In this document: positions 19,230-55,919 of the stretch, piece after piece
Position numbering within the stretch: the first letter of the stretch is position 1
Layout: each line of letters opens with the position of its first letter
Assembly: GCA_030490835.1 (NCBI GenBank)
Contig: CM059972.1
Location: forward strand, 88,273,137 to 88,337,136
Direction: 5' to 3'
Origin: Annona cherimola
Taxonomy: Eukaryota > Streptophyta > Magnoliopsida > Magnoliales > Annonaceae
Length of the DNA stretch: 64,000 nt
Notes under the pieces: model-generated
The model's database searches: none
What the model saw: only the letters and a program-made list of their open reading frames with translations
Told to the model about the DNA's origin: nothing
Translations under genes and position numbers: made by a program

Positions 19230-19420
19230 GGTTCCGCGGAACTCAATTCCGCGTGATAGAATTTGCCAGTTCCGCGCGGACCGCAGTTCCGCGGCAACGA
19301 AGTTCCGCGTGAAGATGGTTCCGCGGCAACGAAGTTCTGCGGGAAAGTGAGTTCCGCATAGAGGTGGTTCCGCGGGATGAAGTTCCGCGGGAACGGCAGT
19401 AGCCGCGGAACTTACACCAG
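19230..19420 (+). repeat. TTCCGCG-rich array, unit 1
   Basis: About a dozen copies of TTCCGCG or one-base variants occur in 190 bp, many within TTCCGCGG palindromes, ending about 15 bp before the TATA box. The position suggests a promoter-proximal element of the LTR. Variants are mostly CpG to TpG or CpA. Confidence 0.7.
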
Positions 19421-19434
19421 ACCCGGCAGAGGCT

Positions 19435-19442
19435 TATAAATA
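19435..19442 (+). promoter_or_regulatory. LTR TATA box 1, unit 1
   Basis: TATAAATA in GGCTTATAAATAGCC, conserved in all three units and directly downstream of the TTCCGCG array. It is a strong plant TATA match and a candidate LTR promoter. Confidence 0.65.
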
Positions 19443-19599
19443 GCCGCATTTGGTTTCTCATTCGTGACAGCGAAGGAAAACGGCGAAGACGAGAGAAGGA
19501 GTTTTCTCGCGCTCAAGGAGAAGAGAGCGTGAGTTCTCCACAGATATATTTTTTTCTTTTAGTTAAAAAAAAAGAGAGAGAGTTCCTTCTTTATATATT

Positions 19600-19633
<34 letters not shown>

Positions 19634-20510: not shown

Positions 20511-20828
20511 TATATGAGTATTTTCTATATATAAAAATATATCAAAATATACATATATATTCAAAGGCGTCCAAAAATTGAGATTTTGATTTCTAAAATT
20601 ATATAAATACCCCGCGGGCCTCCAAAAATGAATATTATGTCCCGCGGGCCTTTAAAAAAATATATATACATGTATTTGCCCCACGGGCCCCAAAAAGTAT
20701 ATATATATTTTTAGACTTTCAAAAATATATATATTATAAAAATAAAAAAAATTTCATATACTTTTGCCTAAGTAGATACTCCCCAAACAGTGGGTTAAGT
20801 TGATACGCAGGGCTAAGTACCTTTCTAT

Positions 20829-20864
<36 letters not shown>

Positions 20865-20929
20865 TCAAAGAAAAAAATTACCTCTTCGCTCAATCCGAGC
20901 TTTAATGTCCAAGCAAGCCCCCCCTAGGC

Positions 20930-21400
20930 TCAAAACTTTTCAAAAAGCCCATGATGGCCCAAAAACTCTCCAAAAAGCCCAAGATGGCTCAAAACTCTCC
21001 AAAAAGCCCAAGATGGCTCAAAACTCTCCAAAAAGCCCAAGATGGCCCAAAACTCTCCAAAAAGCCCAAGATGGCCCAAAAATCTCCAAAAAGCCCAAGG
21101 TGGCCCAAAAATCTCCAAAAAGCCCAAGATGGCTCAAAACTTTCCAAAAAGCCCAAGCTGGCCCAAAAATCTCCAAAAAGCCCAAGATGGCTCAAAACTT
21201 TCCAAAAAGCCCAAGATGGCCCAAAAATCTCCAAAAAGCCCAAGATGGCTTAAAAATCTCCACAAAGCCCAAGATGGATCAAAACTCTCCAAAAAGCCCA
21301 AGATGGCTCAAAACTCTCCAAAAAGCCCAAGCTGGCCCAAAACCCTCCAAAAAGCCCAAAATGGTCCAAACTCTTGTCAACAAGCCCAGTTGGGCCCAAA
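20930..21400 (+). repeat. 29-bp tandem repeat array, unit 1
   Basis: A 29-bp unit (AAAAAGCCCAAGATGGCTCA plus AAACTCTCC) is repeated about 15-16 times with small variants. Because 29 is not a multiple of 3, the same repeat runs through all three plus frames without stops, giving frames rich in KSPRW, KAQDG and KKPKMAQ. These are repeat artefacts unless shown to be translated. Confidence 0.9.
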
Positions 21401-21521
21401 CCTTTTCAATTAGTCAAAAATGACCCAAACATACTTTTAAAAATCCGGTTGAATCCATTTCTTGGTAAAACCACCCAATTGTTCAATCCAGAGGCTGAAT
21501 GCGGGAGACGCTGGTTTCTTG

Positions 21522-21529
21522 TATAAATA
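21522..21529 (+). promoter_or_regulatory. LTR TATA box 2, unit 1
   Basis: TATAAATA in TTGTATAAATACAG, about 630 bp before the LTR end and conserved in every unit. It is an alternative promoter that would give a much shorter leader than TATA box 1. Confidence 0.5.
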
Positions 21530-21681
21530 CAGAAGCTGAAAGCGGGACACGCTGGTCTGCTGTGTAAATCCAGAAGCTAAGAGCGCACTTAGTTTGCTGT
21601 GTAAGGTCACTAGTGTAGCCGACGGGCCCCTCACTAGTTCCCAAAACCGAGTCATCGCTGGTCGACGGGCTAAGCGTAAAC

Positions 21682-21822
21682 TCACATTTAAGACATGGCG
21701 CGTGGCGTCATGTACCCCACATTTAAGTCATGGCGCGTGGCGTCATGTACTTCATATTTAAGATATGGCGCGTGGCGTCATATAGCTCACATTCGAGTCA
21801 CGGCGCGGGGCGAAGTGTACTC
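21682..21822 (+). repeat. 35-bp tandem repeat, about 4 copies, unit 1
   Basis: The unit ACATTTAAGACATGGCGCGT plus GGCGTCATGTACCCC recurs four times, the last copy diverged. Conserved in the other units at 38683-38823 and 56080-56220. Confidence 0.85.
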
Positions 21823-22157
21823 ATTTATCTTTATATTTTTGTTAGACACGATTTTTCGTGCACTTGTAAAGACGTAGAAGGATCTTCTACGCACTTCATT
21901 ATTATTAAGCATTTTTTTATGGACCATTGTATTCAGCTCTTTTAATCAAGGGTTTTCTCGTTAGAGATGTAAAATCAGAATGTGGAACACAATGCAAAAT
22001 ATTTCTGTGATGTACTTTTCGGACTCGGTTAAAGAATTAGATGCTTTAAAATTTTGCTGGGAAATTAATTAAGCATTTATTTCCAAAGCCGCAGGGAACA
22101 TAATTTTATCTTTAACCAAGTTTAAATTATATATATTTCTCGCGAGGCCGGAACAAA

Positions 22158-22175
22158 TGGTGAACCCGACGTGAA
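22158..22175 (+). promoter_or_regulatory. primer binding site of unit 1, tRNA-Trp type
   Basis: TGGTGAACCCGACGTGAA begins 2 bp after the LTR end (ACA at 22153-22155). From memory it is complementary to the 3' 18 nt of plant tRNA-Trp(CCA) including the added CCA. This fixes the LTR/internal boundary and the start of minus-strand DNA synthesis. Confidence 0.8.
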
Positions 22176-22273
22176 ACATTCTCCCTTCATCTTTAAGAGC
22201 TGAAAACTATGGTCTTTATATGCTTATTTAATTTTTCACTGTTAACACTTTGAAATGCTCCTTTGCAGATTTC

Positions 22274-25200
22274 ATGGCGCATTCGATGGCTTTCGGATTC
22301 CTACCCAATGGCGGTTTTGTTATTTCTGAGCCAGATCACATAGATGCGGCTATCCCACATCACTTTATTCGCATACCAGAGAAGCCGGAGCACCGCGTCT
22401 ATCGACACGTCGACTACTCTCCTGCAGTGATAAAGCAAAGAAGAGACCGATCTGCACTACTCAAGGAGCCTCTTATTGCTCAAGGCTCGAAGACCACTCC
22501 TATTCAACCAACAAAGTCTCTGCAGGCGCCAATCCAAATGGGCCCGCCTGCTCGACAGTCGGACTATGCCAAAAAGTCGGCCCGTCGGTTTGCTGCATCA
22601 GCCCAACCAGTAGCACAACAGCCTGCAGGACAACCTGTTTTGCAGTCCCGTTCCATGAAAAGGTTTGCGAGACAATCTACTGCAACCCGGCTAGCGCCAA
22701 CTAGCCGACCAGAAGCCAATGTCCCCCAAAAAGGGGGCAAAACTGTGCCGAATCCTGTTCGATGCACCATCACTCGCCAATTTGGTCGGGCTGCCTCAAG
22801 GGTTGTTGACCTAGCCCCCCGACTTAACCAAAGTGACACCCAAGAGCGGAAGGAGTCAAGAAGACAAACCAAGTTTTCTCAGCTGGAGGCTCCATTGGCC
22901 GATGGAGGGGATGACCAATTCAAGCCACAAGGACCTATTATTGTCCGATCCGGTTTAGGCACCCTGCGATTTGTCATCCCTGACCCGACGCATTCGCCCC
23001 ATCAGTCAACCGATGTTCCATCTAGCTCACAAGCTAGAGTCAAATCTCCAGGTCACTATGATACTGCCAACATAGTGACGGTTCCTCATCACGTATCAAG
23101 GAAACAAAGGAGAAAAGCGCAGCAGAAAAAGCAGTTCGGGAAAGCAACTTCCCGGTTAAACTTGAAGGCTTCATCGCCACTGCCACCAGGACCAAGACAT
23201 AGGCTGTTCTCACACCCCCGACAAAGGGGTGGGCCGCAAAAGAAGCCACTACAGAACTCTCGCAAATTGAGAGTGCCTCAAAAGCCAAGACTCTTTAGCG
23301 GGTGGCAGTATCCCCAGAGGCGCCATACGACGTATCCACGTTCGGTGCTCAGGCTGATCCCTGATTTTATACACAAAAATCAATTCGCCTCATTGATCAG
23401 ACTGAGGGAGGATATGACTTATGCGCCTGTCGTGGCCCCGTCTCGAGAAAAGCACCGGATGCCGCACCCCAAGAGAGAAGCTAAAAGGAGGAGACGTCTC
23501 CTCCAGACGACGGAAGTCAACATGGTGGACCTCACCCAGCCAAGCACTTCCAAAGCGTCGGATATGTTAACCCGGTCAAGGGCAGCCGCAATGCCCATTA
23601 CACCGCCATTCTGTAGCCTCTCTCATCCTGAAGGGATCAGGGCCGCCCTCCCAAGAGGTCAATTTGAAGCCTCTTACATGGTGGGCGAAGAAGAAGAGGT
23701 TCTTACACCCAAGTCTCAGCTCATTCATGACCTCCGGGAGGAGATTAAGAGTATGAAACGGGCTATGGAAACTCAAGGCAACAAGATATCAGGTTCCCAT
23801 CAACCACCATCACCAAGGAACCGTCAATCAGTCCATCAGCCCGAGAAATCAGTCAGGCAGCGGACCGAGGAAGATGAAAATGCAGATTTAGAACAAGGCT
23901 TTCCGCAGTTCAATAATCTGCGTATCAATACCCCTCGAACGCAAGACGCACGGGTAAACACACCCATGGGGTCTCCACCCAGGTATATTGCACAGAAGGA
24001 GATGGTACATCAGCTTGTGGCCGAATGCCTTCGTCGACAGGCACCTCAACTCACTGGGGTCCCTACAACGACAATCAACAGGCCTTATCCCCCAGAGGTT
24101 GAAGCGGAGCTCCTACCTAGAGATTTGAAGCCACCAAAAATTCAATTCGATGGGACTGGGAGCGCGTTAAAGCACCTGGCATCATTCCACTATGCCATGG
24201 GCAATTGGGCGCACCATTCAAATTTTTGTCTTCGAATGTTTCCCAATACTCTTTCCGGTGATGCTTTCCAGTGGTACATATCTCTCCCAATCGGCTCAGT
24301 CCAAACATGGGAAGAGATGAAAGAAATGTTCACCTCCCGATTCGTTGATACCACACGAGAAGTACAACTATCGGAATTATCTACCTTGTCCCAAAAGAAG
24401 GACGAGCCGGTTGAAGACTACATCACTAGATGGCAAAGGGCCGCTAATCGATGTCAAGCACCCCTCTCTCAAGCAATGAAGGTCAATCTTTGCCGAAATG
24501 GCATCAAGACGGAAATCTCGTTGCTGATGAATGAACAACTAAGTACATTTCAGGCCCTAGCTACAGAAGCTTGTCGAAAAGAATATTTGTTGTCTCAGCA
24601 AAAAGCCTGGAAGAAGGAGTCATCCACAACTACTATGTTCAAGAAGAAGAAAACTGGAGAGACCTCTGCAAATACTACAGAGGTTAAGAAGCAGCCAGAT
24701 AAAGCAAAGCCGCCTGTAAAAGAGCAGTCTGCAAAACCCTTCCGAAGAGAGGAAATCCAATATGCCTTTGGAGAAGATGACGTGGAGACGCTATTCCAGC
24801 ACCTCATGTCGACCGGGCTATTCGAGTTGCCTGCCCCAAAAAGGCCAGAAGAAGTTGGACGCACTTCTCACCAGCGATATTGCAGTTACCACCGATATGT
24901 CGGTCACCCCACTAAGAAGTGTTGGGATCTCCAAGCAATATTGCAAGATTACATTGATAAGGGGTTTATAAAACTCAGTCCTCCAGCGCAAGCTTTATCA
25001 AATGTTGTGACAATTGAGATAGCAGAAAAGGGTGATTGGGAAGTGGTTCGAAAACCACCAAGCCTAAGACGGACAAAAAGATGTCTCAAAGATTTATGCA
25101 GAAAAGACAAAAGAATAAGGGATAAGGCCATTCTCCCTTTCTTCTCAAGGCATTTGAGGCAATCCTCACGGGTACAACCATTCATGATTATGGACTTTTT

Positions 25201-27364
25201 GCAGCCCGAATTGCTACTCCCATTCTATCAACGGCTTGCTGGAAGATCACCTCGACCAGAAAAAGAAAGATACATTCTCGAGGAGTTACCAAATACAACT
25301 TCATGTGAGAATGGTCCGTTTTGGGACCTAGATAGCAACAACGGAGAAACCGAAACTTGCTATCATATAAATGCGTCTGCATCCAAGCCTGCAAAGCGGC
25401 GAAGAACAGCCTCGGTGCTTATCCCTAACTACACTAAGTTTGAAGTTGGGATGTCACCGGTAAACCACATCATCACGTATTTGCGAGAATCTCGACTTTT
25501 GCCAGCATCTTGGGAAACCAGAGTGGAATACTTTCGGTACTCACTGGGGGAATCAGTGATGTCTTGGTACCAAGATAATAATATCGAAGAAATTACCGAG
25601 TGGGTCATCTTGATAGATGCGTTCTTGGTCCGCTTCCTGTCAAGACAAAGAGAGCAGTTCCCTAGTAATTACTTGAGGGAAATACAATACAGTCAAGAAT
25701 CTACTGCTCATTATGTAAATTATCTCAGAGACAGTACATGGAGTGACCCCTTGGCCATATGGTTGCCTGAACCTGAAATGGTCACGAAGTACCTTTCGGA
25801 TGCGGTATGCCCTCCGGCTGACAATGGGTACAAGACCTTTGGAGCTAAAACTTTCATAAAGGCAATCCGGTGGGTCGGCAATGAAGGCTTCAAACAAGAG
25901 GCAATCTTTAGCGACGCTGAAGGTTTTGGGAGGACAAATCAACTCCAAGTTCTGCATGTGCTGCAGTTAAACGATGCGCCCATTCTTCGAGTGTTCCCTT
26001 TCTTAACTAGGGAGTTAAGCTATGATTGGCCGCATATTCAGTTATTCCACGAGAATCATAAGTACGCATTGCCGCACTTGTTCGATTATTCATTGGCGGT
26101 CTGTCAAATGGGGCAAACAGAAGAGTTTGCACTCGGGCACTTTGTTTTGAGCTTGGCCCATGATAGTTGTGCCCTTCTCTGGATCTCCTCGCTCCCCGAA
26201 GAAGCATTTGGTTCTTGGGAAGAGTTCGTCGATATGTTTATCCTAAGATTCCACGAATATGAAACAGAGTTCCCTCCAGAGATGATCGAAGTCATGCACC
26301 CCCTATCAGGAGAATCTCAATACGACTACATCTTGAGATGGATAAACTGCAGAATAATCAACCAAAAATTCGACAAAGAAGAAATCATGGTTCATCAGTG
26401 CATCAAGTCAATGAATGGGTATTTTCCTGAAATCCCAAAAATGCAGCCATTTTTCTCAGATGTACTACAGACATTGGCTACAAATATTCAGGACTCTGCC
26501 TCCTGCAATATGGTGCAAGTTGAAGAGGATGTTCTCGCAATTCTTCGATCTGGTCAAATCACACCAGAAAACAAGGGTAAAGCCCCGATACAAGAAAATC
26601 GTACTCAGCCAGAACAGCACATACCAGCCGATCATCGAAAATCCTCAGTAAGCTATGATGTCCTTGGACACTTGAAGCGACTACTTGCTCGACTCAGTAT
26701 TTACGATGCCTTGCAGTTGTCACAAGAAGCCAGGGATGCACTGGTGAGTGCTCTGACAGATGAAAATGTCCGTCTTGCTTACCTGGTCGACGTCGCTGAA
26801 TGTGATGAGGTTATTTCATTCACCGATGAGGATATGTTGCTTGGAGACGTTAATCACAACCGACCCTTATATGTTACGGGCAACCTGGGCGGTGAACTGG
26901 TCAACAGAATCATGATCGATGCCGGGTCTGCAATTAATATCCTGCCCCTTCGAACACTCAGAAGGATCGAAATTTCTCCATCAGCGTTAAAAGACACTAG
27001 TGTGGTGATTCACGGGTTTAATCAAGGGACTCAAAAGGCCATGGGCCTAATTGAGTTGGAACTAAGCATAGAAGATTTCTGCACCGAAATCCCGTGCTTT
27101 GTGATTAATGCCCCGACCTCATATAACTTGCTGTTAGGAAGGCCTTGGCTCTACAGTAATAAGATCATCGCATCAACGGTGCATCAATGCTTCAAGTACT
27201 GCAAGGATGGAGTCGAAAAAAGGATTTTTGCTGACCATAAACCATTCGCAACGGCGGAATCATTTTACTCTGATGCTAAGTATTATGACTTGGCATCTGC
27301 TGTCAACACATCAATAAAAGCAGTTGAAGCGACCACACGCGAAGGTCAGCAGGAGGTATCTTAG
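22274..27364 (+). CDS. gag: gag-protease polyprotein of unit 1 (intact)
   Basis: A 1696-codon frame ends at TAG 27362-27364. The first in-frame ATG is 22274, just after CTTTGCAG, which looks like a splice acceptor. Residues 1 to about 620 are basic, Arg/Pro/Gln-rich and unrecognised. A retrotransposon gag/capsid-like domain lies at about 626-729 (FQWYISLP, SVQTWEEMKEMFTSRF). A Cys-His motif C-x2-H-x4-H-x4-C is at residues 870-883 (CSYHRYVGHPTKKC), typical of Tat gag. Two further capsid-like segments follow at about 1049-1156 (SWYQDN...FLVRFL) and 1246-1383 (LLWISSLPEEAFGSWEEF, FILRF). An aspartic protease with MIDAGSAINIL, catalytic Asp about 1549, and LLLGRPWL closes the frame. This is far longer than common Ty3/gypsy gag proteins. 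It would assemble the virus-like particle and process the polyproteins. Confidence 0.88.
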   Translation: MAHSMAFGFLPNGGFVISEPDHIDAAIPHHFIRIPEKPEHRVYRHVDYSPAVIKQRRDRSALLKEPLIAQGSKTTPIQPTKSLQAPIQMGPPARQSDYAKKSARRFAASAQPVAQQPAGQPVLQSRSMKRFARQSTATRLAPTSRPEANVPQKGGKTVPNPVRCTITRQFGRAASRVVDLAPRLNQSDTQERKESRRQTKFSQLEAPLADGGDDQFKPQGPIIVRSGLGTLRFVIPDPTHSPHQSTDVPSSSQARVKSPGHYDTANIVTVPHHVSRKQRRKAQQKKQFGKATSRLNLKASSPLPPGPRHRLFSHPRQRGGPQKKPLQNSRKLRVPQKPRLFSGWQYPQRRHTTYPRSVLRLIPDFIHKNQFASLIRLREDMTYAPVVAPSREKHRMPHPKREAKRRRRLLQTTEVNMVDLTQPSTSKASDMLTRSRAAAMPITPPFCSLSHPEGIRAALPRGQFEASYMVGEEEEVLTPKSQLIHDLREEIKSMKRAMETQGNKISGSHQPPSPRNRQSVHQPEKSVRQRTEEDENADLEQGFPQFNNLRINTPRTQDARVNTPMGSPPRYIAQKEMVHQLVAECLRRQAPQLTGVPTTTINRPYPPEVEAELLPRDLKPPKIQFDGTGSALKHLASFHYAMGNWAHHSNFCLRMFPNTLSGDAFQWYISLPIGSVQTWEEMKEMFTSRFVDTTREVQLSELSTLSQKKDEPVEDYITRWQRAANRCQAPLSQAMKVNLCRNGIKTEISLLMNEQLSTFQALATEACRKEYLLSQQKAWKKESSTTTMFKKKKTGETSANTTEVKKQPDKAKPPVKEQSAKPFRREEIQYAFGEDDVETLFQHLMSTGLFELPAPKRPEEVGRTSHQRYCSYHRYVGHPTKKCWDLQAILQDYIDKGFIKLSPPAQALSNVVTIEIAEKGDWEVVRKPPSLRRTKRCLKDLCRKDKRIRDKAILPFFSRHLRQSSRVQPFMIMDFLQPELLLPFYQRLAGRSPRPEKERYILEELPNTTSCENGPFWDLDSNNGETETCYHINASASKPAKRRRTASVLIPNYTKFEVGMSPVNHIITYLRESRLLPASWETRVEYFRYSLGESVMSWYQDNNIEEITEWVILIDAFLVRFLSRQREQFPSNYLREIQYSQESTAHYVNYLRDSTWSDPLAIWLPEPEMVTKYLSDAVCPPADNGYKTFGAKTFIKAIRWVGNEGFKQEAIFSDAEGFGRTNQLQVLHVLQLNDAPILRVFPFLTRELSYDWPHIQLFHENHKYALPHLFDYSLAVCQMGQTEEFALGHFVLSLAHDSCALLWISSLPEEAFGSWEEFVDMFILRFHEYETEFPPEMIEVMHPLSGESQYDYILRWINCRIINQKFDKEEIMVHQCIKSMNGYFPEIPKMQPFFSDVLQTLATNIQDSASCNMVQVEEDVLAILRSGQITPENKGKAPIQENRTQPEQHIPADHRKSSVSYDVLGHLKRLLARLSIYDALQLSQEARDALVSALTDENVRLAYLVDVAECDEVISFTDEDMLLGDVNHNRPLYVTGNLGGELVNRIMIDAGSAINILPLRTLRRIEISPSALKDTSVVIHGFNQGTQKAMGLIELELSIEDFCTEIPCFVINAPTSYNLLLGRPWLYSNKIIASTVHQCFKYCKDGVEKRIFADHKPFATAESFYSDAKYYDLASAVNTSIKAVEATTREGQQEVS
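27362..27364 (+). promoter_or_regulatory. conserved in-frame amber codon between gag-protease and pol
   Basis: TAG separates the two large frames, which are in the same frame; 16 open codons join it to the ATG at 27413. It is present in all three units (44363-44365 and 61760-61762). It could be passed by readthrough or removed by a short intron, as reported for Ogre elements of the Tat group. Confidence 0.6.
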
Positions 27365-27412
27365 GCTCCCCCCGCCCCAGTAAGCACAGACATATTCTCA
27401 AAGGGTGAGAAA

Positions 27413-30400
27413 ATGGAAGGTCAAGGTCGTGGTCGAGGGCGCGGTCATGGACAAGGGACGACAGAACCAAGGGCTCAATTTCAAACCAAATTTGAAAATA
27501 TGAGCCTCGATCCAGTACATCCACTACCACGACAACGACAGGGGGCAACCATACCACCTCCTACCAGCTATAGCAACACTGCTGCAGGATCACGGTTCTA
27601 CTTGGACCTCGAAGTCCTGAAAAAGGTTGCTAAACCGCCTCGAGCCAATTCCCCTAGGTTTGAGGTAGATCTGGAAGCTCTTCGGAAATTCCGGAATCAG
27701 GCCAATGAGGAAGCCAAGTCACTTTGCTGTGAGAGTGACGAAATGGCCACTGAGACCGCTCACCAAAATCAAAAACCTAAGGAAACGCTCGATGAGGTTT
27801 TAGCAATGCTCGTGGAGTTTAATGTATCTGCTCCAAGTGTGCAGGAACCTCAAGATGAAAAATTTGCCCAAAAACATTTAATAAAGAAATATGGCAAGGT
27901 TTACGGTAGCCCTAACAAATCCTCTTGTTTGCCAACGGCTAAGCTCAAGAAATGGGATTTCCATCGCTATAGCAGAGAAAGCAAGAAAATTATGGATTTG
28001 ATGGGGTTCTATCCTGATAGACCACATTTATCAGGCCTCGGAAGTGACATCCCTATCCCGTTATCCGAAAGGCCCCCTGGTTTTCAAAAGGGTAACAAAA
28101 GACTCGGCCTTGGGTATAAAGAAGAAGAAGACGGCAACTTCGCCACCACCTACTGCGTCTCCACAAGTGATGACTCCAACAATGATGAAGAGGCATTAAT
28201 GGAACCAGAGGATGCTCCACCTGCGATTGAGGATGGAGGACAGCCTACTATTGACGTACTTGAAGAGTTCAATCTCGGGACTGAGGAGGACCCGAGACCC
28301 ATTTTTATCGCCAAAAACCTGGCCGAAAAAGAAAAGGTGGCATTGAGGCAGCTTTTAAGTGAATTCAAAGATGTTTTTGCTTGGGGGTATTCTGAAATGC
28401 CAGGTCTCAACCCCGCGATTGCAATGCACCATCTGCATATTACGCAGGATAAAAAGCCAGTCAAGCAAGCTCCGAGAAGATTTCGACCAGAGCTCGAAGA
28501 ACAAATCATCAAGGAAGTTGAAAAACTCATTGATGCTGAATTCATTCGGGAAATCAAATTTCCAAAATGGATTTCTAGCATTGTTCCTGTCAAAAAGAAA
28601 AACGGGCAGATCCGCATTTGCGTAGACTTTCGAGATCTAAACGAAGCATGCCCTAAAGATGAATTTCCTCTTCCTTTCACTGATGTGTTAATCGACAGCA
28701 CAGCTCTGTACGACACGTTCTCCTTTATGGATGGATATTCGGGATATAATCAAATCAAGATGGCTCCAGCAGATGAAGCCGCAACAGCATTTCGAACACC
28801 GATGGGTGTCTTTTGCTACAAAGTCATGCCTTTTGGTCTTAAGAATGCTGGCGCAACTTATCAAAGGGCAATGCAAAATATATTTCATGATATGTTACAC
28901 AAACATGTCGAGTGCTATGTCGATGACCTGGTTGTAAGATCTGAAGGCCACAATAAGCATAAAGAAGATTTGAGATCGGTATTCTTACGCCTGAGAAAGT
29001 ATGATCTCAAGATGAATCCTCTCAAATGCGCATTTGGAGTATCGTCTGGAAAATTCCTCGGATTCATAATCCGTCAAAGGGGAATCGAGGTTGATCCACT
29101 CAAAACGGAAGCAATTCAAAATATGCCGCCTCCACGAAACCTCCGAGAATTAAGGAGTCTCCAAGGTCAATTGTCATATATCCGGCGTTTCATCTCCAAC
29201 TTGTCCGGCCGGTGCCATCCCTTTCACAAGTTAATGAGAAAAGACGCGACTTTTCAATGGGACGCGAAATGCCAACAGGCCTTTGAAGCCATCAAAGAAT
29301 TGCTGCAAAATCCTCCTGTTTTGACAACTCCAGTAAAAGGAAAGCCACTCATTCTCTATATTGCTGCCAGCCCACAATCACTGGGGGCATTGCTCGCACA
29401 AGAAAATGCCCAAGGCAAAGAACAAGCCGCCTATTATCTCAGTCGACGATTATTGCAAGCTGAATGCAATTATTCCTCGATCGAGAAGATTTGTCTAGCA
29501 TTGGTTTTTGTGGCACAAAAGCTAAGACATTACTTCCTCGCGCATCAGATCATACTTATATCGAAGGCCGATCCCCTCAAGTTCCTGATCACTAAACCAA
29601 TGCTTTCAGGACGCCTAGCAAAATGGTCACTGCTGCTGTCTGAGTTTGATATCAAATATGTGCCACGAAAGGCAGTGAAAGGACAAGTGTTAGCAGATTT
29701 CCTAGCAGCCCATCCGCTTGAAGAAGAATTTCCCATCTTAGAAAACCTACCTGATGAGAAGGTTTTCTATGCAAATGATGATCCAATGTGGCAAATGTAT
29801 TTCGATGGCGCTTCAAAGCCATCCGGAGCTGGTGTTGGAATTGTCGTAGTCTCCCCTCATAAAGACTTATTCCCGCACTCCTACTTTCTTGGGAGAAGCA
29901 CAACAAATAACGAAGCTGAGTATGAGGCCTTACTCATCGGCATGGAACTTCTTCTGCAATCAGATATTTTATTTGTGCGAATATTTGGGGACTCTGAATT
30001 GGTTATTAAACAGTTAAATAATCAATATGAAGTACACCAGCCTCATTTGCGAAAATATTATGACAAAGCTCAAACTTTGTTGGCAAAGTTCGAAATGGTT
30101 TCGGTTGAGCATGTTCCTCGATCAGAAAATATAGTCGCTGATGCACTATCAAAGTTGGCCAGTATTCTCGCCTTTAATGAGCTCGATGACATGACAATTC
30201 GAGTACAAAGACTAGAAGATGACGAAGAGCTCCAAGTAAATCAAATTGGACGGTGCGTATCCGAGGTAACTACAAACAATGATGATTGGCGCATCCCTAT
30301 CATCAATTACCTCAAATATGGTATTGAACCAGATGATCCAAGTGCAAGGAAGTCACTGAGAAAGGCTGTTTTGCGATATACCGTGTTTCAAGATAGTTTG

Positions 30401-31534
30401 TATCGGATTGCTTTTGATGGGCTTTGGCTTCGCTGTATTAACGGGAATGATATCTGTCAAGTCCTTCAAGAGACGCACTCCAGCGAGTGCGGCGCCCACC
30501 AATCTGGACGTCGTCTTTATCATAGGATCAAAACGTTGGGCTATTATTGGCCCACAATGGTTCAAGACTCCATCAACTTTGCAAAATCCTGTGAAGCCTG
30601 CCAAATGCATGGAGATATTTATCATATTCCTGCTTCAGTAATGTCTCCAGCACCTATTTCGTGGCCTTTCTCTTGGTGGGGTTTTGATATTGTCGGTCCG
30701 ATAAACCCGTCATCATCTAAAGGACACTTATATATTTTAGCCGCTACGGATTATTTCTCCAAATGGGCAGAAGCTAAAGCTTACAAGAGAGTCCGAGCAC
30801 AAGAGGTAGTTGAATTTATCAAGCACAAAATCATCTACCGTTATGGTGTTCCCTATCAAATCACCTCAGATAATGGCACGCCATTCAAAAACGATAAAGT
30901 AAATCAGTTATGCCGAAGGTTTGGAATCAAACAAGTGTTCTCATCGCCCTATTACCCACAAGGGAATGGTCAAGCAGAGGCATTTAACAAAAATATTATT
31001 CGAATCCTCAAAAGGACCACTGTGAAAAATAAGCGTGATTGGCACGAGAGGTTACCCGAAGCATTGTGGGCCTACAGAACCACACATCGAACTGCAACGG
31101 GAGCAAAACCATATTCATTGCTCTTTGGCACGGAAGCGGTTTTACCAGTGGAAATTCAGTTAGCATCTTTAAGGGTTGCCATCTATTCTGGGTTAACCAC
31201 TGAACAACAAGCCAAACTTCGCTTCGACGAGCTCGAGGCACTAGATGAAAAACGAGTTCAAGCACGGCAACGAATCGAACTCTATCAAGCTCGGATGGTC
31301 GAAGCATACAATAAAGTCGTGAGACATCGCTCATTCAAAAGAGGAGATTTGGTGCTAAAGCTACGCACAGAGCTTATGGCCGGGGGCAAACTTACCGGCA
31401 AATTCGAGCCTAAATGGGAAGGGCCTTACATCATTGAGAGGGTCCATGGCAATGGCACATATGAAGTTGTTAGTTGCGGAAATCAAATGAAAGCAACCGT
31501 GAACGGGAACTACTTAAAAAGATACTATCCATGA
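27413..31534 (+). CDS. pol: pol polyprotein of unit 1: RT, RNase H, second RNase H, integrase (intact)
   Basis: A 1373-residue frame. After an acidic/Gly-Arg leader, reverse transcriptase spans about 320-560 with ICVDFRDLNEACPKDEFPLP and the catalytic YVDD at 502-505. A connection/RNase H follows at about 620-760; its first acidic residue appears changed (LYIAASPQ), as commonly seen in the Tat group. A second, archaeal-type RNase H starts at about 795 with FDGAS (Asp about 798) and NNEAEYEAL. Integrase has a His-Cys zinc region (about 1023-1065, ending CEACQMHG) and the triad D1092, D1153, E1189, with 35 residues between the last two. The end is EGPYIIERVHGNGTYEV...LKRYYP. No stop or shift is visible, so this copy could supply enzyme activity. 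Confidence 0.92.
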   Translation: MEGQGRGRGRGHGQGTTEPRAQFQTKFENMSLDPVHPLPRQRQGATIPPPTSYSNTAAGSRFYLDLEVLKKVAKPPRANSPRFEVDLEALRKFRNQANEEAKSLCCESDEMATETAHQNQKPKETLDEVLAMLVEFNVSAPSVQEPQDEKFAQKHLIKKYGKVYGSPNKSSCLPTAKLKKWDFHRYSRESKKIMDLMGFYPDRPHLSGLGSDIPIPLSERPPGFQKGNKRLGLGYKEEEDGNFATTYCVSTSDDSNNDEEALMEPEDAPPAIEDGGQPTIDVLEEFNLGTEEDPRPIFIAKNLAEKEKVALRQLLSEFKDVFAWGYSEMPGLNPAIAMHHLHITQDKKPVKQAPRRFRPELEEQIIKEVEKLIDAEFIREIKFPKWISSIVPVKKKNGQIRICVDFRDLNEACPKDEFPLPFTDVLIDSTALYDTFSFMDGYSGYNQIKMAPADEAATAFRTPMGVFCYKVMPFGLKNAGATYQRAMQNIFHDMLHKHVECYVDDLVVRSEGHNKHKEDLRSVFLRLRKYDLKMNPLKCAFGVSSGKFLGFIIRQRGIEVDPLKTEAIQNMPPPRNLRELRSLQGQLSYIRRFISNLSGRCHPFHKLMRKDATFQWDAKCQQAFEAIKELLQNPPVLTTPVKGKPLILYIAASPQSLGALLAQENAQGKEQAAYYLSRRLLQAECNYSSIEKICLALVFVAQKLRHYFLAHQIILISKADPLKFLITKPMLSGRLAKWSLLLSEFDIKYVPRKAVKGQVLADFLAAHPLEEEFPILENLPDEKVFYANDDPMWQMYFDGASKPSGAGVGIVVVSPHKDLFPHSYFLGRSTTNNEAEYEALLIGMELLLQSDILFVRIFGDSELVIKQLNNQYEVHQPHLRKYYDKAQTLLAKFEMVSVEHVPRSENIVADALSKLASILAFNELDDMTIRVQRLEDDEELQVNQIGRCVSEVTTNNDDWRIPIINYLKYGIEPDDPSARKSLRKAVLRYTVFQDSLYRIAFDGLWLRCINGNDICQVLQETHSSECGAHQSGRRLYHRIKTLGYYWPTMVQDSINFAKSCEACQMHGDIYHIPASVMSPAPISWPFSWWGFDIVGPINPSSSKGHLYILAATDYFSKWAEAKAYKRVRAQEVVEFIKHKIIYRYGVPYQITSDNGTPFKNDKVNQLCRRFGIKQVFSSPYYPQGNGQAEAFNKNIIRILKRTTVKNKRDWHERLPEALWAYRTTHRTATGAKPYSLLFGTEAVLPVEIQLASLRVAIYSGLTTEQQAKLRFDELEALDEKRVQARQRIELYQARMVEAYNKVVRHRSFKRGDLVLKLRTELMAGGKLTGKFEPKWEGPYIIERVHGNGTYEVVSCGNQMKATVNGNYLKRYYP

Positions 31535-31771
31535 AATTACAAAGAAAGTCATATATCAAAAGAATCTTTACAGCCTCCCTCGTAGAAGGAAGGGACTCCT
31601 TCAAAATTCTAATGGAGTTCACTAAATCAGCAGGAGAAACAGGTAACGGCACTATCGATGTCAAATTCTCCCCGCCGTGAGCATCATCATCAGATATTTC
31701 GACAACTAAGGCAGTTGTCAAAAAAAAAAAAAAAAAAAGGGGGGGGGGTGAATTTTCCCTGTTTCTTGCGG
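31535..31771 (+). other. pol 3' flank and homopolymer A/G junction, unit 1
   Basis: Non-coding after the pol stop. At 31720-31748 a run of 19 A is followed by 10 G, just before AGO-like sequence begins. In unit 2 the run is 27 A and 9 G (48721-48756). Confidence 0.7.
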
Positions 31772-31773
31772 AG

Positions 31774-33173
31774 GTGGAAGAGACGGAGGCTGAGGAGAAA
31801 ACTTTGCCGCCTCCCCCACCTGTCATACCCCTAAGTGCGAAAAAAGTCTCAATGAATCGAGTTCCAATGGCAAGGTCGTGGTCGAGGGCGCGGTCATGGA
31901 CAGAGTTCACCAGACTTATATTGGTGACTTTCAGGGAAAGTACTTCGCTTATGATGGTGAGAAGAGCTTGTTTACAGTGGGGGCTCTTCCACAACAAAAT
32001 TTTGAATTCGGTGTTGTCCTTGAAAACGTGTCCTCAAACAAAGTTAGTGGAAATAGTAGTCCTCATGGTAATGACAGCCCCGGGGAGGGAGATCGGAAAG
32101 GGCAAAGGCGTTCGTATCAGACCAAGACTTTCAAAGTTGAGATACGTTTTGCTGCCAAAATTCCAATGAAAGTTATTGCAAATGCTCTGCAAGGACACGA
32201 TTCCTAGAGTTCTCAAGAAGCCTTAAGGGTTCTAGATATAATCCTAAGGCAGCATGCTGCAAAGCAGGGTTGCCTTCGGGTTCGGCAGTCATTTCTTCAC
32301 AATGATCCTAGTAACTTTGTTGACTTTGGAGGTGGAGTTCTGGGTTGTCGTGGTTTTCATTCTAGCTTCCGAACCAGTCAAGGGGGGCTTCTCTCTAAAT
32401 ATTGATGTGATTATAAGGCCTGACTCTGTTGATGGATTTCTGATGGCTAATCAAAATATTAGAAATCATGGTGAAATTGATTGGGGAAAAGCAAAGAGAA
32501 CCCTGAAGAATTTGAAGGTTTTCTGCAAATATGTCATGCATTAATGTTGGAAAGCCAAAACGCCCCACTTACTATCCTGCCGAGCTCTGCTCTCTAGTTT
32601 CATTGCAAAGGTATACCAAATCTCGATCAACTTTGCAAAAATCATCACTGGTTGAAAAACCACGACAGAAACCACAAGAAGGGATGCAAACTTTAAGTAA
32701 TGCATTAAGAAACAGCAACTATGGTGCAGATGAAATGTCGAAGGCATGTGGTGTTTCGATCAATGGTAACTTCACTCAAGAAGAAGGTCGTGTCTTGAAT
32801 GCACCAAAGTTAAAAGTTGGTAATGATGAATTCTTTCCTGGAAATGGTCGGTGGAATTTCAACAATAAGAAACTTGTGGACCCTCAAAAAAAAAAAAAAA
32901 AAAAAAATAGAAATATGGGCCACTGTAAACTTTTCTGCTCGCTGCGATGTTCGGTCTCTTGCTCGTGATATGCACAAATGTGGGGCGATGAAAGGCATTG
33001 TCATTGCAGAACCATTTGATTACTTTGAAGAGAATCCTCAATTCAGGCGTGCTCCACCTACTGTTAGGGTCGACAAGATGTTCGAAATCATTCAGTCAAG
33101 GCTGCCAGGAGCCCCTCAGTTTCTTCTCTGTGTTTTACCTAAGAAAAAGAATTGTGATATATATGGCCCATAA
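31774..33173 (+). pseudogene. captured AGO4-clade Argonaute sequence, unit 1
   Basis: Sense-oriented, intronless pieces follow AGO4/6/9-type Argonautes in order. N-terminus: LPPPPPVIP and RVPMAR. N/linker-1 region: VHQTYIGDFQGKYFAYDGEK, SYQTKTFKVEI, VLDIILRQHAAKQG, GCRGFHSSFRTSQGG. Start of PAZ: IDWGKAKRTLKNLKV. End of PAZ and linker 2: CINVGKPKRPTYYPAEL, QEEGRVLNAPKLK, GRWNFNNKK. Start of MID: WATVNFSARCDV, FRRAPPTVRVDKMFE, PQFLLCVLPKKKN, ending at IYGP. Most of PAZ and all of PIWI are absent. Disabling changes include TAG at 32205-32207, an extra G near 32377-32382, a frame change in 22 A at 32886-32907, and an internal deletion after PMAR. Lack of introns over several hundred codons implies capture from spliced RNA. 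It cannot encode a slicer, but could feed small RNAs against host AGO4. Confidence 0.85.
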
Positions 33174-33301
33174 TAAAAATGTATATATATATATATATAA
33201 GAAAAAAAACCCTCATGAGTCAAGAAAAGCCTGCCAAACAACATGTCAGGAATCACGCCTTTACAAGTAGCCCACAACGGCATAATTCCTGAGGGGGCAT
33301 T
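33174..33301 (+). other. 3' untranslated segment with polypurine tract, unit 1
   Basis: Contains a TATATA run (33181-33199) and ends with CCTGAGGGGGCATT. GAGGGGG at 33291-33297 is the likely polypurine primer for plus-strand synthesis, directly before TGATGGGG. Confidence 0.65.
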
Positions 33302-33708
33302 TGATGGGGTATATTTTGGGTAGTCTATGAAACTATACATATATATAATATATTAAAAAAAAACACGAACCCAGTGGTGCGTGCAAGCCGCAGAGAGAGA
33401 TTCTCTGCCTACGAAGAGAAAAAGTGCAAAAGAAAGAAGCCGGAGCACAGGAGGATTTCGCGCCGGAAAAGCAGTCATCGGCCGCGTGGTAGGAAGATCG
33501 CACGGGGTGAATGGCTGTGGCGAGCCACGGAGGAAATCGCCTGCTGTTTGCTCCTCCTCCATCTTGTTGGAGCTATCGGCCTTCGACGATCTCGCCTCCT
33601 TTAAGCGCGCCGAGGAGGAAGATGGTGCTGTGGTCGGTAAGGTTGGGTTTTGGTACGGGCGCAGAATGGGTTCGAGAAAGATGGGGCTTGAGGAGCGAAC
33701 CCCTCTCA

Positions 33709-33925
33709 TTATCGCCGCCTCGTCAGTAGGTCAAGCACCACGATTCCGAAACTGTATACGTCCGACTCCTTCATTGTCTGCCTCGACAGCGCCACCTCCA
33801 GCGAGACGTAGCAGACAGACCCCACCACCGGTGCCATCGTGGCCGAAGTCGACGCTTCGGGCGCTGCCGACGACTGGACGCTCACTAGCCGGTCGAAGCC
33901 GAAATCCGAAAGGTGGACCTCAAGA
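33709..33925 (-). pseudogene. captured LRR receptor-kinase fragment (antisense), LTR of unit 2
   Basis: On the minus strand the frame reads EVHLSDFGFDRLV, APEASTSAT, GSVCYVSLEVALSRQTMKES and SDVYSFGIVVLDLLTRRR. These are kinase subdomains VII to IX: the DFG magnesium-binding motif, an activation loop whose APE-type motif is changed to SLE, and DVYSFGxxLLELLTG. The wording resembles plant LRR receptor kinases with PQNVLFDADFEAHLSDFGLD. ATP-binding and catalytic-loop subdomains are absent. In this LTR the piece is cut at about 33925; the copy in the next LTR is longer. Confidence 0.72.
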
Positions 33926-34017
33926 TGAAGCAGATGGGAACGACAAAAAGCAGATGAAGCAGATGAAGCAGATGAAGCAGATGAAGCAGATGGGAACGGC
34001 AAAAAGCAGATGAAGCA
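33926..34017 (+). repeat. GATGAAGCA-type microsatellite replacing deleted sequence, unit 2 LTR
   Basis: Runs of GCAGATGAA repeat about five times between two copies of a GATGGGAACG(A/G)CAAAAAGCA word. The corresponding position in the next LTR holds about 400 bp of further host-like sequence (about 50935-51345), so this LTR carries a deletion with repeat expansion. Confidence 0.7.
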
Positions 34018-34310
34018 GTGGAGAGGGTGAGGAACCGGGCTGAAGCGGAACGATGCCTCGGGGCGGCGGAGAAGCTGCTGACGTCCCGCGATCTCATCAA
34101 CAGCAAAAGCTTTGCTGTTCAAGCTCAAAAGGCAGACCCCACCTTGGATGGGACGGAGCAGATCATCGCCATCACGGTTTCCAGCTCCAGATTCGTTCTC
34201 TGCAACTCTTCCTTAAGGATCCGAATCTCGTTGTCGAGAAGACGAGAAGCTCTGGTTATGGCGTCAAGTAAGCTGGTCGTCTTCGAAGGATTGTCGGGAT
34301 GCTGCTGATC
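34018..34310 (+). pseudogene. captured fragment resembling a plant DnaJ-domain protein N-terminus, unit 2 LTR
   Basis: The frame contains [39 protein letters not shown] and EQIIAI. This resembles the helical N-terminal repeat of a family of plant J-domain proteins (EAxRCxxIAEKxLxxRDLxGAKxFAxxAQxxxPxLEG). The J domain with HPD is not present. The similarity is from memory, so moderate at best. Confidence 0.42.
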
Positions 34311-34607
34311 ATAGTTCAGAAGGTCGTGGTGGAGATGGAGAACGGCAGCATTGACGAGCTTTTGGATTCCGTCGCGAGGGAGCAGCCGATCGATCTGAGT
34401 CAGGACCTGTGGAGGACAGCCTGGGAGGTCAGCAACTCCGTGCTGGATGAGATGAAGAAGGTGCGGAACAGGGAAGAGATGAAGAAGTTCCTCCAGGACG
34501 GGTACGGCGTCCGACAGAACATCGCAGAGGACTGCCGGTTCCTCGTCCAGGCCAACGCTTGCGAGCTCGCCTCAATTCTGTCGTCGCCTGAGCAGCCACT
34601 GGCGTGA
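34299..34607 (+). pseudogene. unrecognised host-like coding fragment, unit 2 LTR
   Basis: A 102-codon frame with an amphipathic helical look (EMENGSIDELLDSVAR, SNSVLDEMKK, NREEMKKFLQDGYGVRQNIA) is retained almost unchanged in the next LTR (51641-51949). Composition and codon use look like real coding sequence rather than repeat. I do not recognise the family. It is probably another captured exon. Confidence 0.4.
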
Positions 34608-34659
34608 CACTACCACCATCCGTAGTATTCTCCACGATCGGGATGATGAAAGCCCCGCC

Positions 34660-35250
34660 GTGGAAACCACCTACCCGCCTGGCCGCACCCTCCTCGACAT
34701 CATCAGCTCTGAGAAGTCCAGATATGCCGACACCTACAAGGGCATGATCGACGGATGTCCGCAGCAAAAGATCAGACAGAAGTCCTTCAAGGACCGCCTC
34801 CGCATCCGGCGCACCGGCGCTGCTGGGGCCGAGTCTGACCCCGATGTCACCGTCTCTTACGTTCTGACTGTTTCGGCCCGAGCCGCCGCCATCCCGCCGG
34901 AATCAGTCTTCTCCGTGGGAAAGAACTGCCCGGTGACCATCTCTTCCCCGTCGCCGTCGAGCAGGGTGGACGATGTGGAGCTGTCGGAGGAGATGTCAGC
35001 AGCGTCCGGGTGGATTGGGAAGAGTAATCCGGTAAAGGCTGCTGCATCGTCTTTCCCGAGCGGCAGTATGGCCGAGTCGCCATCAGTAAGGGCGAACAAT
35101 TTTCCCGGGGCGATTAGTCTGACAAAAGTTTCGGTTATGAAAATGCCGCCTGGAGTATCAGAGAAAGGTGGAAAGCCATCAGTTGATGTGCAGAATAAAC
35201 GAGCTGGAGTGTCAAAGCCAGCAAAAGAGAAAACTTCAAAAGCTGAAAGA
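34660..35250 (+). pseudogene. captured eIF2B-delta-like fragment with upstream basic segment, unit 2 LTR
   Basis: Here the frame starts further upstream than in unit 1: YPPGRTLLDIISSEKSRY and KSFKDRLRIRRTGAAG precede the eIF2B-delta-like words SAASGWIGKSNP and KPAKEKTSKAERRA. The GRTLLDII...FKDRLRxRRxGAA segment recalls a linker of some plant RING-type proteins, so this may itself be a fusion of two sources. The same one-base shift after AERRA is present. Confidence 0.48.
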
Positions 35251-35956
35251 CGTGCGTCTGCAAGAGGCAGACACAGCAGAGCCACTGAATGGGGCGTCTC
35301 TGGCGGACAAAGTGGCTTCCCTGGATGGGTCGTCTCCGGTTGACATGAGTTCGGTGGAGGGCACGTCTCCTGTGGTTGTAGTGGATTCGGTAGCATCTGC
35401 GGAGGCAGCTGTCTCAACTCCTGCAGACATTACAGCTGCAGATGCAGCAGTTTCACCAACTCCAGCGGCTTCAGTGGCCTCCGCGGTCTCAGTTGATGTG
35501 GGAGTTCAGGCAGCAACCGCACCAGCGGTGGATGGGACAAACGCGTGGGAGCTAATGAAAGCTAGAGGCCTAAAGAAGCCGCCGGGTTGCAGTTGGGTTG
35601 ACCTGAACGGCACGATCCATGCATTCTACGTGGCGGACAGATCGCACCCACAAGCTGAAGCGACGGAGATGGAGGTGGACGAGAGAGGGACGAGTGAGGG
35701 GGCGATCATGGAATCCGAGTGCCCGCACTGCAGAAGATTGTTCTGTGCCACGTGCAAGGTCCCTTGGCATTCGGGAATCAGCTGCGAGGACTTCCAGAAG
35801 CTAGGCGGGCATGAGAGGAATGGGGAGGACATCATGCTGATGAATCTCACTAAGAGCAACAAATGGCAGAGGTGCCGGCAATGCAAGTTTTATGTGGGGA
35901 AGACAGAAGGATGCTTGTTCATGAGATGCAGAAACTGGCTGGATTACAGTGGCTAG
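35168..35956 (+). pseudogene. chimeric ORF: linker, PPR E-motif and RBR ligase fragment, unit 2
   Basis: Copy of the chimera at 18278-19066, 262 codons and still open, differing at only a few residues (for example ASLAD for ASPAD). It holds the PPR E-motif (KKPPGCSWVDL) and the in-between-RING cysteine pattern (CPHCRRLFCATC, CRQCKFYV). Confidence 0.72.
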
Positions 35957-36117
35957 CACAAGAAATCTGAAGCGAACTGAAATCCCTGTTTTCCATAAAT
36001 GAAGTGCGGATTCCGTTTCTGCTATAACTGTGGTGGGCCAAGCAGGCGAAAAAAAAAAAAAAAAAACCGGAGCAGCAGCAAAGGATGCAACGGCGAACGA
36101 GGGAGTGGCTACCATCA

Positions 36118-36302
36118 AGGTTCCGCGGAACTCAATTCCGCGTGATAGAATTTGCCAGTTCCGCGCGGACCGCAGTTCCGCGGCAACGAAGTTCCGCGTG
36201 AAGATGGTTCTGCGGCAATGAAGTTCTGCGGGAAAGTGAGTTCCGCGTAGAGGTGGTTCTGCGGGATGAAGTTCCGCGGGAACGGCAGTAGCCGCGGAAC
36301 TT
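36118..36302 (+). repeat. TTCCGCG-rich array, unit 2
   Basis: Same array as in unit 1, with more TTCCGCG to TTCTGCG changes (for example at 36207-36213). Confidence 0.7.
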
Positions 36303-36323
36303 ACACCAGACCCGGCAGAGGCT

Positions 36324-36331
36324 TATAAATA
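36324..36331 (+). promoter_or_regulatory. LTR TATA box 1, unit 2
   Basis: TATAAATA in GCTTATAAATAGCC, identical in all units. Confidence 0.65.
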
Positions 36332-36499
36332 GCCGCATTTGGTTTCTCATTCGTGACAGCGAAGGAAAACGGCGAAGACGAGAGAAGGAGTTCTCTCGCG
36401 CTCAAGGAGAAGAGAGCGTGAGTTCTCCACAGATATATTTTTTTCTTTTAGTTAAAAAAAAAGAGAGAGAGTTCCTTCTTTATATATTATATATATATA

Positions 36500-37550
36500 T
36501 AAATATATATATATATATTATTTCTAAAAAAAAACTACTTTTCCCAACGTGGATACTCCCCGACTGGCGGGTTGAATTGACACACGGGTTAAGTATATTT
36601 TCCCTCTTTTAAAAAATAAAATAAATATATATATATATATGTGTATATTATATATAAATATATATACATATATATTATTTTCAAAAACTACTTTTCCCAA
36701 CGTGGATACTCCCCGACTGGCGGGTTGAATTGACACACGGGTTAAGTATATTTTCCCTCTTTTAAAAAATAAAATAAATAAATATATATGTGTATATTAT
36801 ATATATAAATATATATACATATATATACATATATATATTATTTTCAAAAACTACTTTTCCCAACGTGGATACTCCCCGACTGACGGGTTGAATTGACACA
36901 CGGGTTAAGTATACTTTCCCTCTTTTAAAAATAAAATAAAAATATATATATGTATATTATATATATATAAATATATATATATACATATATATTATTTTCG
37001 AAAACTACTTTTCCTAACGTGGATACTCCCCGACTGGCGGGTTGAATTGACACACGGGTTAAGTATATTTTCCCTCTTTTGAAAATAAAATAAAAATATA
37101 TATGTGTATATTATATATATCTATATATCTATATATACATATATATTATTTTCAAAAACTACTTTTCCCAACGTGGATACTCCCCGACTGGCGGGTTGAA
37201 TTGACACACGGGTTAAGTATATTTTCCCTCTTTTAAAAATAAAAATAAAAATATATATGTGTATATTATATATATATATCTATATATACATATATATTAT
37301 TTTCAAAAACTACTTTTCCCAACGTGGATACTCCCCGACTGGCGGGTTGAATTGACACACGGGTTAAGTATACTTTTAAAAATAAAATAAATATATATAT
37401 GTGTATATTATATATATATATATCTATATATACATATATATATTATTTTCAAAAACTACTTTTCCCAACATGGATACTCCCCGACTGGCGGGTTGAATTG
37501 ACACACGGGTTAAGTATATTTTCCCTCTTTTAAAAATAAAAATAAAAATA
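36500..37550 (+). repeat. tandem array of about-155-bp monomers, unit 2 (7 copies)
   Basis: Constant parts recur at about 36549, 36712, 36865, 37019, 37173, 37324 and 37470, one more than in unit 1; a degenerate copy lies near 37810. Confidence 0.9.
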
Positions 37551-37958
37551 TATGAGTATTTTCTATATATAAAAATATATCAAAATATACATATATATTC
37601 AAAGGCGTCCAAAAATTGAGATTTTGATTTCTAAAATTATATAAATACCCGCGGGCCTCCAAAAATGAATATTATGTCCCGCGGGCCTTTAAAAAAATAT
37701 ATATACATGTATTTGCCCCACGGGCCCCAAAAAGTATATATATATTTTTAGACTTTCAAAAATATATATATTATAAAAATAAAAAAAATTTCATATACTT
37801 TTGCCTAAGTAGATACTCCCCAAACAGTGGGTTAAGTTGATACGCAGGGCTAAGTACCTTTCTATTATATATATACATATATATATATATATATCAAAGA
37901 AAAAAATTACCTCTTCGCTCAATCCGAGCTTTAATGTCCAAGCAAGCCCCCCCTAGGC

Positions 37959-38400
37959 TCAAAACTTTTCAAAAAGCCCATGATGGCCCAAAAACTCTCC
38001 AAAAAGCCCAAGATGGCTCAAAAATCTCCACAAAGCCCAAGATGGCTCAAAACTCTCCAAAAAGCCCAAGATGGCTCAAAACTCTCCAAAAGGCCCAAGA
38101 TGGCCCAAAAATCTCCAAAAAGCCCAAGATGGCTCAAAACTTTCCAAAAAGCCCAAGATGGCCCAAAAATCTCCAAAAAGCCCAAGATGGCTCAAAACTT
38201 TTCAAAAAGCCCATGATGGCCCAAAAACCCTGCAAAAAGTCCAAGATGGCTCAAAAATCTCCACAAAGCCCAAGATGGATCAAAACTCTCCAAAAAGCCC
38301 AAGATGGCTCAAAACTCTCCAAAAAGCCCAAGCTGGCCCAAAACCCTCCAAAAAGCCCAAAATGGTCCAAACTCTTGTCAACAAGCCCAGTTGGGCCCAA
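37959..38400 (+). repeat. 29-bp tandem repeat array, unit 2
   Basis: Same 29-bp unit as in unit 1, about one copy shorter; array length changes between units in steps of 28-31 bp. Confidence 0.9.
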
Positions 38401-38522
38401 ACCTTTTCAATTAGTCAAAAATGACCCAAACATACTTTTAAAAATCCGGTTGAATCCATTTCTTGGTAAAACCACCCAATTGTTCAATCCAGAGGCTGAA
38501 TGCGGGAGACGCTGGTTTCTTG

Positions 38523-38530
38523 TATAAATA
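38523..38530 (+). promoter_or_regulatory. LTR TATA box 2, unit 2
   Basis: TATAAATA, conserved relative to 21522-21529. Confidence 0.5.
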
Positions 38531-38682
38531 CAGAAGCTGAAAGCGGGACACGCTGGTCTGCTGTGTAAATCCAGAAGCTAAGAGCGCACTTAGTTTGCTG
38601 TGTAAGGTCACTAGTGTAGCCGACGGGCCCCTCACTAGTTCCCAAAACCGAGTCATCGCTGGTCGACGGGCTAAGCGTAAAC

Positions 38683-38823
38683 TCACATTTAAGACATGGC
38701 GCGTGGCGTCATGTACCCCACATTTAAGTCATGGCGCGTGGCGTCATGTACTTCATATTTAAGATATGGCGCGTGGCGTCATATACCTCACATTCGAGTC
38801 ACGGCGCGGGGCGAAGTGTACTA
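38683..38823 (+). repeat. 35-bp tandem repeat, unit 2
   Basis: Four copies of the GGCGCGTGGCGTCAT-containing unit, as in unit 1. Confidence 0.85.
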
Positions 38824-39158
38824 ATTTATCTTTATATTTTTGTTAGACACGATTTTTCGTGCACTTGTAAAGACGTAGAAGGATCTTCTACGCACTTCAT
38901 TATTATTAAGCATTTTTTTATGGACCATTGTATTCAGCTCTTTTAATCAAGGGTTTTCTCGTTAGAGATGTAAAATCAGAATGTGGAACACAATGCAAAA
39001 TATTTCTGTGATGTACTTTTCGGACTCGGTTAAAGAATTAGATGCTTTAAAATTTTGCTGGGAAATTAATTAAGCATTTATTTCCAAAGCCGCAGGGAAC
39101 ATAATTTTATCTTTAACCAAGTTTAAATTATATATATTTCTCGCGAGGCCGGAACAAA

Positions 39159-55798: not shown

Positions 55799-55919
55799 CC
55801 TTTTTAATTAGTCAAAAATGACCCAAACATACTTTTAAAAATCCGGTTGAATCCATTTCTTGGTAAAACCACCCAATTGTTCAATCCAGAGGCTGAATGC
55901 GGGAGACGCTGGTTTCTTG

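Follow-up and report, generated by a model that had tools for sequence, protein, structure and literature searches.

The locus examined here is a long LTR retrotransposon that carries part of an AGO4-type Argonaute gene, and it raises the question of how such a sequence came to be inside the element and what, if anything, it does there. AGO4-type proteins are effectors of RNA-directed DNA methylation, the pathway that silences elements of this kind. We analyzed a window of 64,000 nucleotides (G000:C2:88273137-88337136) and extended the searches to the whole 791.8-Mb assembly (1370 contigs).

Self-comparison of the window resolved a tandem array of the retrotransposon in which neighbouring units share LTRs. 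Four copies of the AGO4 cargo were spaced 17.0–17.4 kb apart, two inside the window and two in further units beyond it. The parts of the element, in window coordinates, are:

17876..22155, + strand: first LTR of the array, 5'-truncated at 17876 (from self-comparison; 3' end set by the 3' flank of the array in L055)
22156..33301, + strand: internal region of unit 1
22232..27364, + strand: ORF1, 1710 aa, with a gag domain (PF03732, E 1.1e-21)
27365..31534, + strand: ORF2 (pol), 1389 aa, with RT, RNase H, RVT_3 (second RNase H-like) and integrase domains (PF00078, PF17919, PF17917, PF13456, PF17921, PF00665)
31535..31719, + strand: spacer from the pol stop to the A-run, alignable in 17 rows and mostly deleted in one
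31720..31748, + strand: A-run then G-run, directly 5' of the AGO4 5'UTR
33290..33301, + strand: probable polypurine tract, preceding the LTR; the other copies compared look alike here
33302..39156, + strand: second LTR of the array (~5.9 kb), which contains additional fragments resembling host genes
19594-20643, 36479-37681, 53818-55018; 20846-21522, 37904-38523, 55243-55800: LTR tandem repeats (~154 and ~29 bp)

The gag and pol domains and the repeated LTRs mark this as an LTR element. Within ORF2, RVT_3 lay at 813-931 and rve at 1101-1198, so that a second RNase H-like domain stands between RNase H and integrase, an arrangement that marks the Tat lineage. With RT, RNase H, RVT_3, and integrase in the Tat order, this is a Tat-type Ty3/Gypsy element, apparently of Annona cherimola. 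ORF1 and the pol ORF were in the same frame with a single stop codon between them (27362-27364), and the ~154 bp and ~29 bp tandem repeats differed among the LTRs. A part of the second LTR that recurs in the other LTRs (33302-36350) contained an IBR piece (E 5.4e-08, + strand) in 35141-35953, and a PPR E-motif (+ strand) in the same interval scored under its curated cut-off. A protein-kinase piece was found on the - strand of this LTR at 33709-34212. Judging by these fragments, the family may have captured several genes. The array also has an AGO gene as its neighbour, located 5.5 kb ahead of the window (G000:C2:88266753-88267622, - strand); this gene has a long PIWI exon, is presumably AGO2/3-like, and has similar genes at C5:25626507 and C5:25599564.

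The preliminary description of this DNA had reported an intronless AGO4-type sequence at 31774-33173, with Argonaute segments in their proper order, in sense orientation after pol, and repeated in unit 2 of a multi-copy element. All of this was borne out. Successive Pfam matches on the + strand were to ArgoN (E 1.7e-15), the PAZ end (2.5e-07), and ArgoL2 (2.9e-09), and alignment to the closest host gene, on C3, placed exons 2 to 13 between pol and the LTR without introns. The segment is real, but its extent shifted to ~31753-33171, and a broken frame and the status of a deletion derivative have to be added to that first account. The cargo features are:

31753..31773, + strand: AGO4 5'UTR piece (host exon 1), fused directly to exon 2, the 2.2-kb intron of the host gene being absent; the match begins at mRNA base 12
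31774..33165, + strand: AGO4 exons 2 to 13, spliced, with deletions at the exon 2/3 border and in the PAZ region and with frame breaks; blocks 89.7-100% identical to the host gene
32205..32207, + strand: in-frame TAG at host codon 190, which is GAG in both host genes
32516..32523 (about 32519), + strand: PAZ deletion point, joining host 4558 to 4814
33166..33171, + strand: first ~six bases of host exon 14, followed by an A/T-rich stretch
48780..50179, + strand: second AGO4 cargo copy, in unit 2 (G000:C2:88321916-88323315)

The window cargo had no PIWI domain, and the combination of an intact frame with PAZ, MID, and PIWI was absent from the AGO4 cargo, whose frame was broken in several ways. 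The PAZ region missing from the window was retained in some other copies (e.g., L063, L067, L069, L071, and L073). The copy in the window arose by deletion from a longer captured sequence.

The host gene most similar to the cargo is on the reverse strand of C3 at 68.557-68.570 Mb. Most of its exon blocks were 92-100% identical to the cargo over all copies compared; identity fell as low as 82% where blocks were short or contained indels. Its gene model has GT-AG introns and an open frame of 898 aa; a gap in the 3'UTR alignment at host 10246-10343 was rejected as an intron for want of GT-AG borders. The predicted protein was 69% identical to Arabidopsis AGO4 and only 43% and 40% identical to two other host PIWI domains, while its best PDB match was 7sva, 'Protein argonaute 10'. 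The cargo thus appears closest to AGO4-type genes. The C3 gene has the introns expected of a gene of the donor type, which does not imply that it is the very donor. A tandem paralogue at C3:68.59 Mb was discarded as the donor, since its identity to the cargo was lower (72-94%).

That the donor was not the C3:68.56 Mb gene itself but a lost paralogue, an allele, or the AGO4 of a related species is a serious contender, if somewhat short of an even chance. The 21 changes common to nearly all copies fell 3/5/13 by codon position (11 host-side changes fell 2/3/6), and the third-position bias of the shared changes, which resembles that of a constrained gene, suggests constrained divergence of the donor prior to its capture. 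Against such a separate donor, the C3 gene was clearly closer than its tandem paralogue, and a pattern from exon 14 matched only these two host AGO4 genes genome-wide. Intron-bearing AGO loci outside the comparison of gene sequences include those at C6:9.44 Mb and C6:62.91 Mb. Cargo-to-host divergence was 3.1-6.8% (28 rows).

The copies also preserve details of the molecule that was captured. Cargo exon 2 joins exon 3 through an internal GT donor that skips 77 nt and breaks the frame. This junction was present in all 22 spanning rows of an alignment of 28 (five window-type rows had a larger deletion there and one started later) and in 15/15 spanning rows of a second alignment, while none of 42 cargo rows had more than 20 letters in the skipped stretch. 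Genome-wide, the shifted junction occurred at 181 places and the normal junction at 0, with reversed controls at 0. Codon 190 was a stop in 39 of the 42 cargo rows (TAG 37, TAA 2, gap 3), among which the four units of the window array are not independent, and a tree separated the two host genes from all 42 rows with a split support of 1.000. The cargo copies also lacked the introns of the C3 gene, including the one in its 5'UTR. By the shared junction, the captured message was a frame-breaking splice isoform lacking these 77 nt, and we infer a single capture.

Apart from other AGO loci, a search for PIWI domains turned up AGO4 PIWI pieces without introns at eight places, and a spliced exon 20/21 pattern identified the same eight (control 0). 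These copies extended to the end of the gene and into the 3'UTR. Five of the eight had an A-run of at least 9 after the 3'UTR, at a site where the host gene has none, and the other three had 3-5 A followed by TA repeats with no clear A-run. Six began in the 5'UTR and two at mRNA base 97; mRNA 1241-1932 was absent from six, and the remaining two lacked slightly more. With PIWI and 3'UTR in eight copies and an A-run in five of these, capture of an entire, polyadenylated mRNA is probable. The exon-14 pattern revealed no full-length cargo copy anywhere in the genome. Two deletion forms instead divide the message, one running from the 5'UTR to early MID, as in the window, where it stops at the A-rich start of exon 14, and the other holding PAZ, PIWI, and 3'UTR. 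The two were not clean clades, as L020, L068, and L069 of the window form grouped with L030 and L032 of the PIWI form (support 0.88-0.92).

A cargo 24-mer bearing the TAG stop matched 180 places with at most 2 mismatches (reversed control 0), a count that presumably includes the two host AGO4 genes, one mismatch away; the 100 matches listed were all exact. Since two cargo-specific patterns gave 180 and 181 places and their reversed controls 0, these matches are not due to chance. A 34-mer from the end of pol matched 208 places. Among the 100 of these listed, 80 were exact pol ends on C1-C5, and a cargo mark lay no more than 2.6 kb from 53/80. Reading 16 of the remaining 27 showed cargo in 15 and none in one, L058. 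At 20/20 loci the order was pol end, AGO4, and then sequence up to the LTR start, so the cargo propagated with the element. The three conditions that could have overturned the first description, a closest match outside the AGO4 type, host introns in the cargo, and its absence from other element copies, were each contradicted by what we found. L037 was set aside as an AGO4-less relative, as only its pre-LTR piece matched, and three places taken as possible AGO4-less copies all carried AGO4 (3/3). The family forms tandem arrays, with two to four units spaced 16-18 kb apart, at G000:C2:88.30-88.36M, C1:35.54-35.57M, C4:41.12-41.15M, C2:102.75-102.77M, C4:79.98-79.99M, and C2:120.87-120.89M. In the AGO4-bearing copies L009-L011, L013, and L015-L020, the match to the window ended within ~16 bases of the LTR start, which suggests LTR subfamilies or swaps.

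Pol and cargo differed in how they varied among copies. At sites with at least 10 rows, variable positions fell 22/23/88 by codon position in pol (up to 20 rows, some with little coverage) and 136/116/122 in the cargo (24 rows). Variation in pol is thus concentrated at third positions and that in the cargo is even, so pol is under constraint while the cargo, among copies, is without sign of protein-level selection.

We consider it quite probable that these observations go back to a single capture event, for which template switching in an A-tract is the likely route, and that the cargo was then amplified as a passenger and decayed. A Tat-type Ty3/Gypsy element would have taken up spliced AGO4 mRNA from a gene similar to today's C3 AGO4. 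The oligo-T end of the nascent cDNA, templated by the A-tract 3' of pol, would have paired with the poly(A) tail of an AGO4 message packaged together with the element RNA, and reverse transcription would have run to the 5' end of that message and then back onto the element RNA. Later copies would descend from this event, with the two deletion forms arising among them, and the cargo would have multiplied to ~180 places as a non-coding passenger while pol stayed selected. In filled copies the A-run was followed by a G-run (at least 7 in 8/17 rows) and the AGO4 5'UTR, and the 3' side was A-rich or TA-rich before the element sequence resumed. This anatomy fits template switching, as it is what would result from transfer of an oligo-T cDNA end to a poly(A) tail, and the G-run could represent untemplated bases added at the cap. 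In L058, pol and the spacer were followed by an A-run of 23 bases and a GA-rich run, after which came the element sequence found 3' of the cargo in other copies; L058 may be a deletion between A-tracts rather than an empty relative.

Four observations sit less easily with a single capture by template switching. The third-position bias of the shared changes is unexpected if all of them followed a capture that was dead on arrival, only a single AGO4-less relative (L058, perhaps itself a deletion product) was among the copies read, the deletion forms were mixed on the tree, and 3/8 PIWI copies had no clear A-run. An unlikely but workable alternative is that LINE machinery inserted a processed AGO4 pseudogene into one copy of the element, at its A-rich tract, and that this copy was later amplified. 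A spliced mRNA with 5'UTR, 3'UTR, and, in 5/8 copies, an A-run, all at an A-rich site, is what such an insertion would leave, but no target-site duplication was noticed on non-systematic inspection, where an all-A duplication would be indistinguishable from the tail.

The passenger status of the cargo could be questioned at the level of RNA. The window copy shared 388 21-mers and 335 24-mers with the host AGO4 mRNA, and 44 sampled sequences (including the cargo-less L058) matched 1809/2921 of its 21-mers and 1702/2918 (58%) of its 24-mers, with a reversed control of 0. Because of these shared words, trans-acting siRNAs are possible, no more. AGO4-matching siRNAs from the copies might lower expression of host AGO4 or methylate it and so weaken silencing of the element, or the match might shield the element, since its silencing would strike AGO4 as well, and these long stretches identical to host AGO4 would allow it; the open 898-aa frame retained in the host gene model and the loss of different cargo pieces from different copies make it rather improbable. 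We regard as marginally more doubtful still the proposal that siRNAs from the ~180 copies with AGO4 cargo target the host AGO4 gene in trans. RNA-directed DNA methylation would then be weakened whenever the element is silenced, or silencing would be held back for the sake of AGO4. If this were true, an amplified element would be turning the silencing machinery's own sequence against it.

A protein product of the cargo that serves as an AGO4 decoy or helper is highly improbable, since the bias of the shared changes (3/5/13) is outweighed by the frame-breaking junction in every spanning row (22/22 and 15/15), the common stop at codon 190 (39/42), the even variation among copies, a window form without PIWI, and an intact ORF in none of the sampled copies. 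Of the roles offered in the preliminary description, passive cargo therefore fits best, and a decoy acting as a protein is disfavoured.

The family preserves an unusually complete record of gene capture, with an mRNA and its UTRs, a diagnostic splice junction, a shared stop, decay in ~180 places, and the most similar host gene available for comparison. As AGO4-type genes encode effectors of the silencing pathway, feedback of captured fragments on that machinery can be tested here in a natural setting. Tat-lineage Ty3/Gypsy elements have the same RVT_3 between RNase H and integrase, to which this family adds its AGO4 cargo as well as long LTRs that contain further pieces resembling host genes. 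The captures by maize Helitrons, Pack-MULEs, and Sireviruses described as siRNA reservoirs, as far as the portions consulted describe them, likewise hold donor-near sequence sharing words of small-RNA size; here the donor type is AGO4 and an siRNA role is a candidate.

Capture of host genes by LTR elements is known, and in the titles and abstract openings of papers found by searching the open-licence literature no LTR element with a captured Argonaute was described, which is no proof of novelty, the more so as the full text of some of them (for example PMC8616336, PMC10370002, and PMC11986588) mentions AGO4 or argonaute; the accessible portions of PMC13317346 contained 0 words beginning with AGO and those of PMC7264820 0 occurrences of Argonaute. 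The genes captured by LTR elements in rice and sorghum are, in the portion available, usually in sense with gag-pol (PMC7264820). They share with our cargo this placement inside the LTR element, but many are reported as expressed or selected, whereas the AGO4 cargo shows no sign of protein-level selection. Maize Bs1 is likewise an LTR element with host-gene segments, which come from three genes and form a chimeric transcribed gene according to the accessible part of its description (PMC13317346). In contrast to Bs1, the element described here holds one mRNA with both UTRs from a silencing-gene type of donor, shows no coding constraint on it, and carries it at ~180 places.
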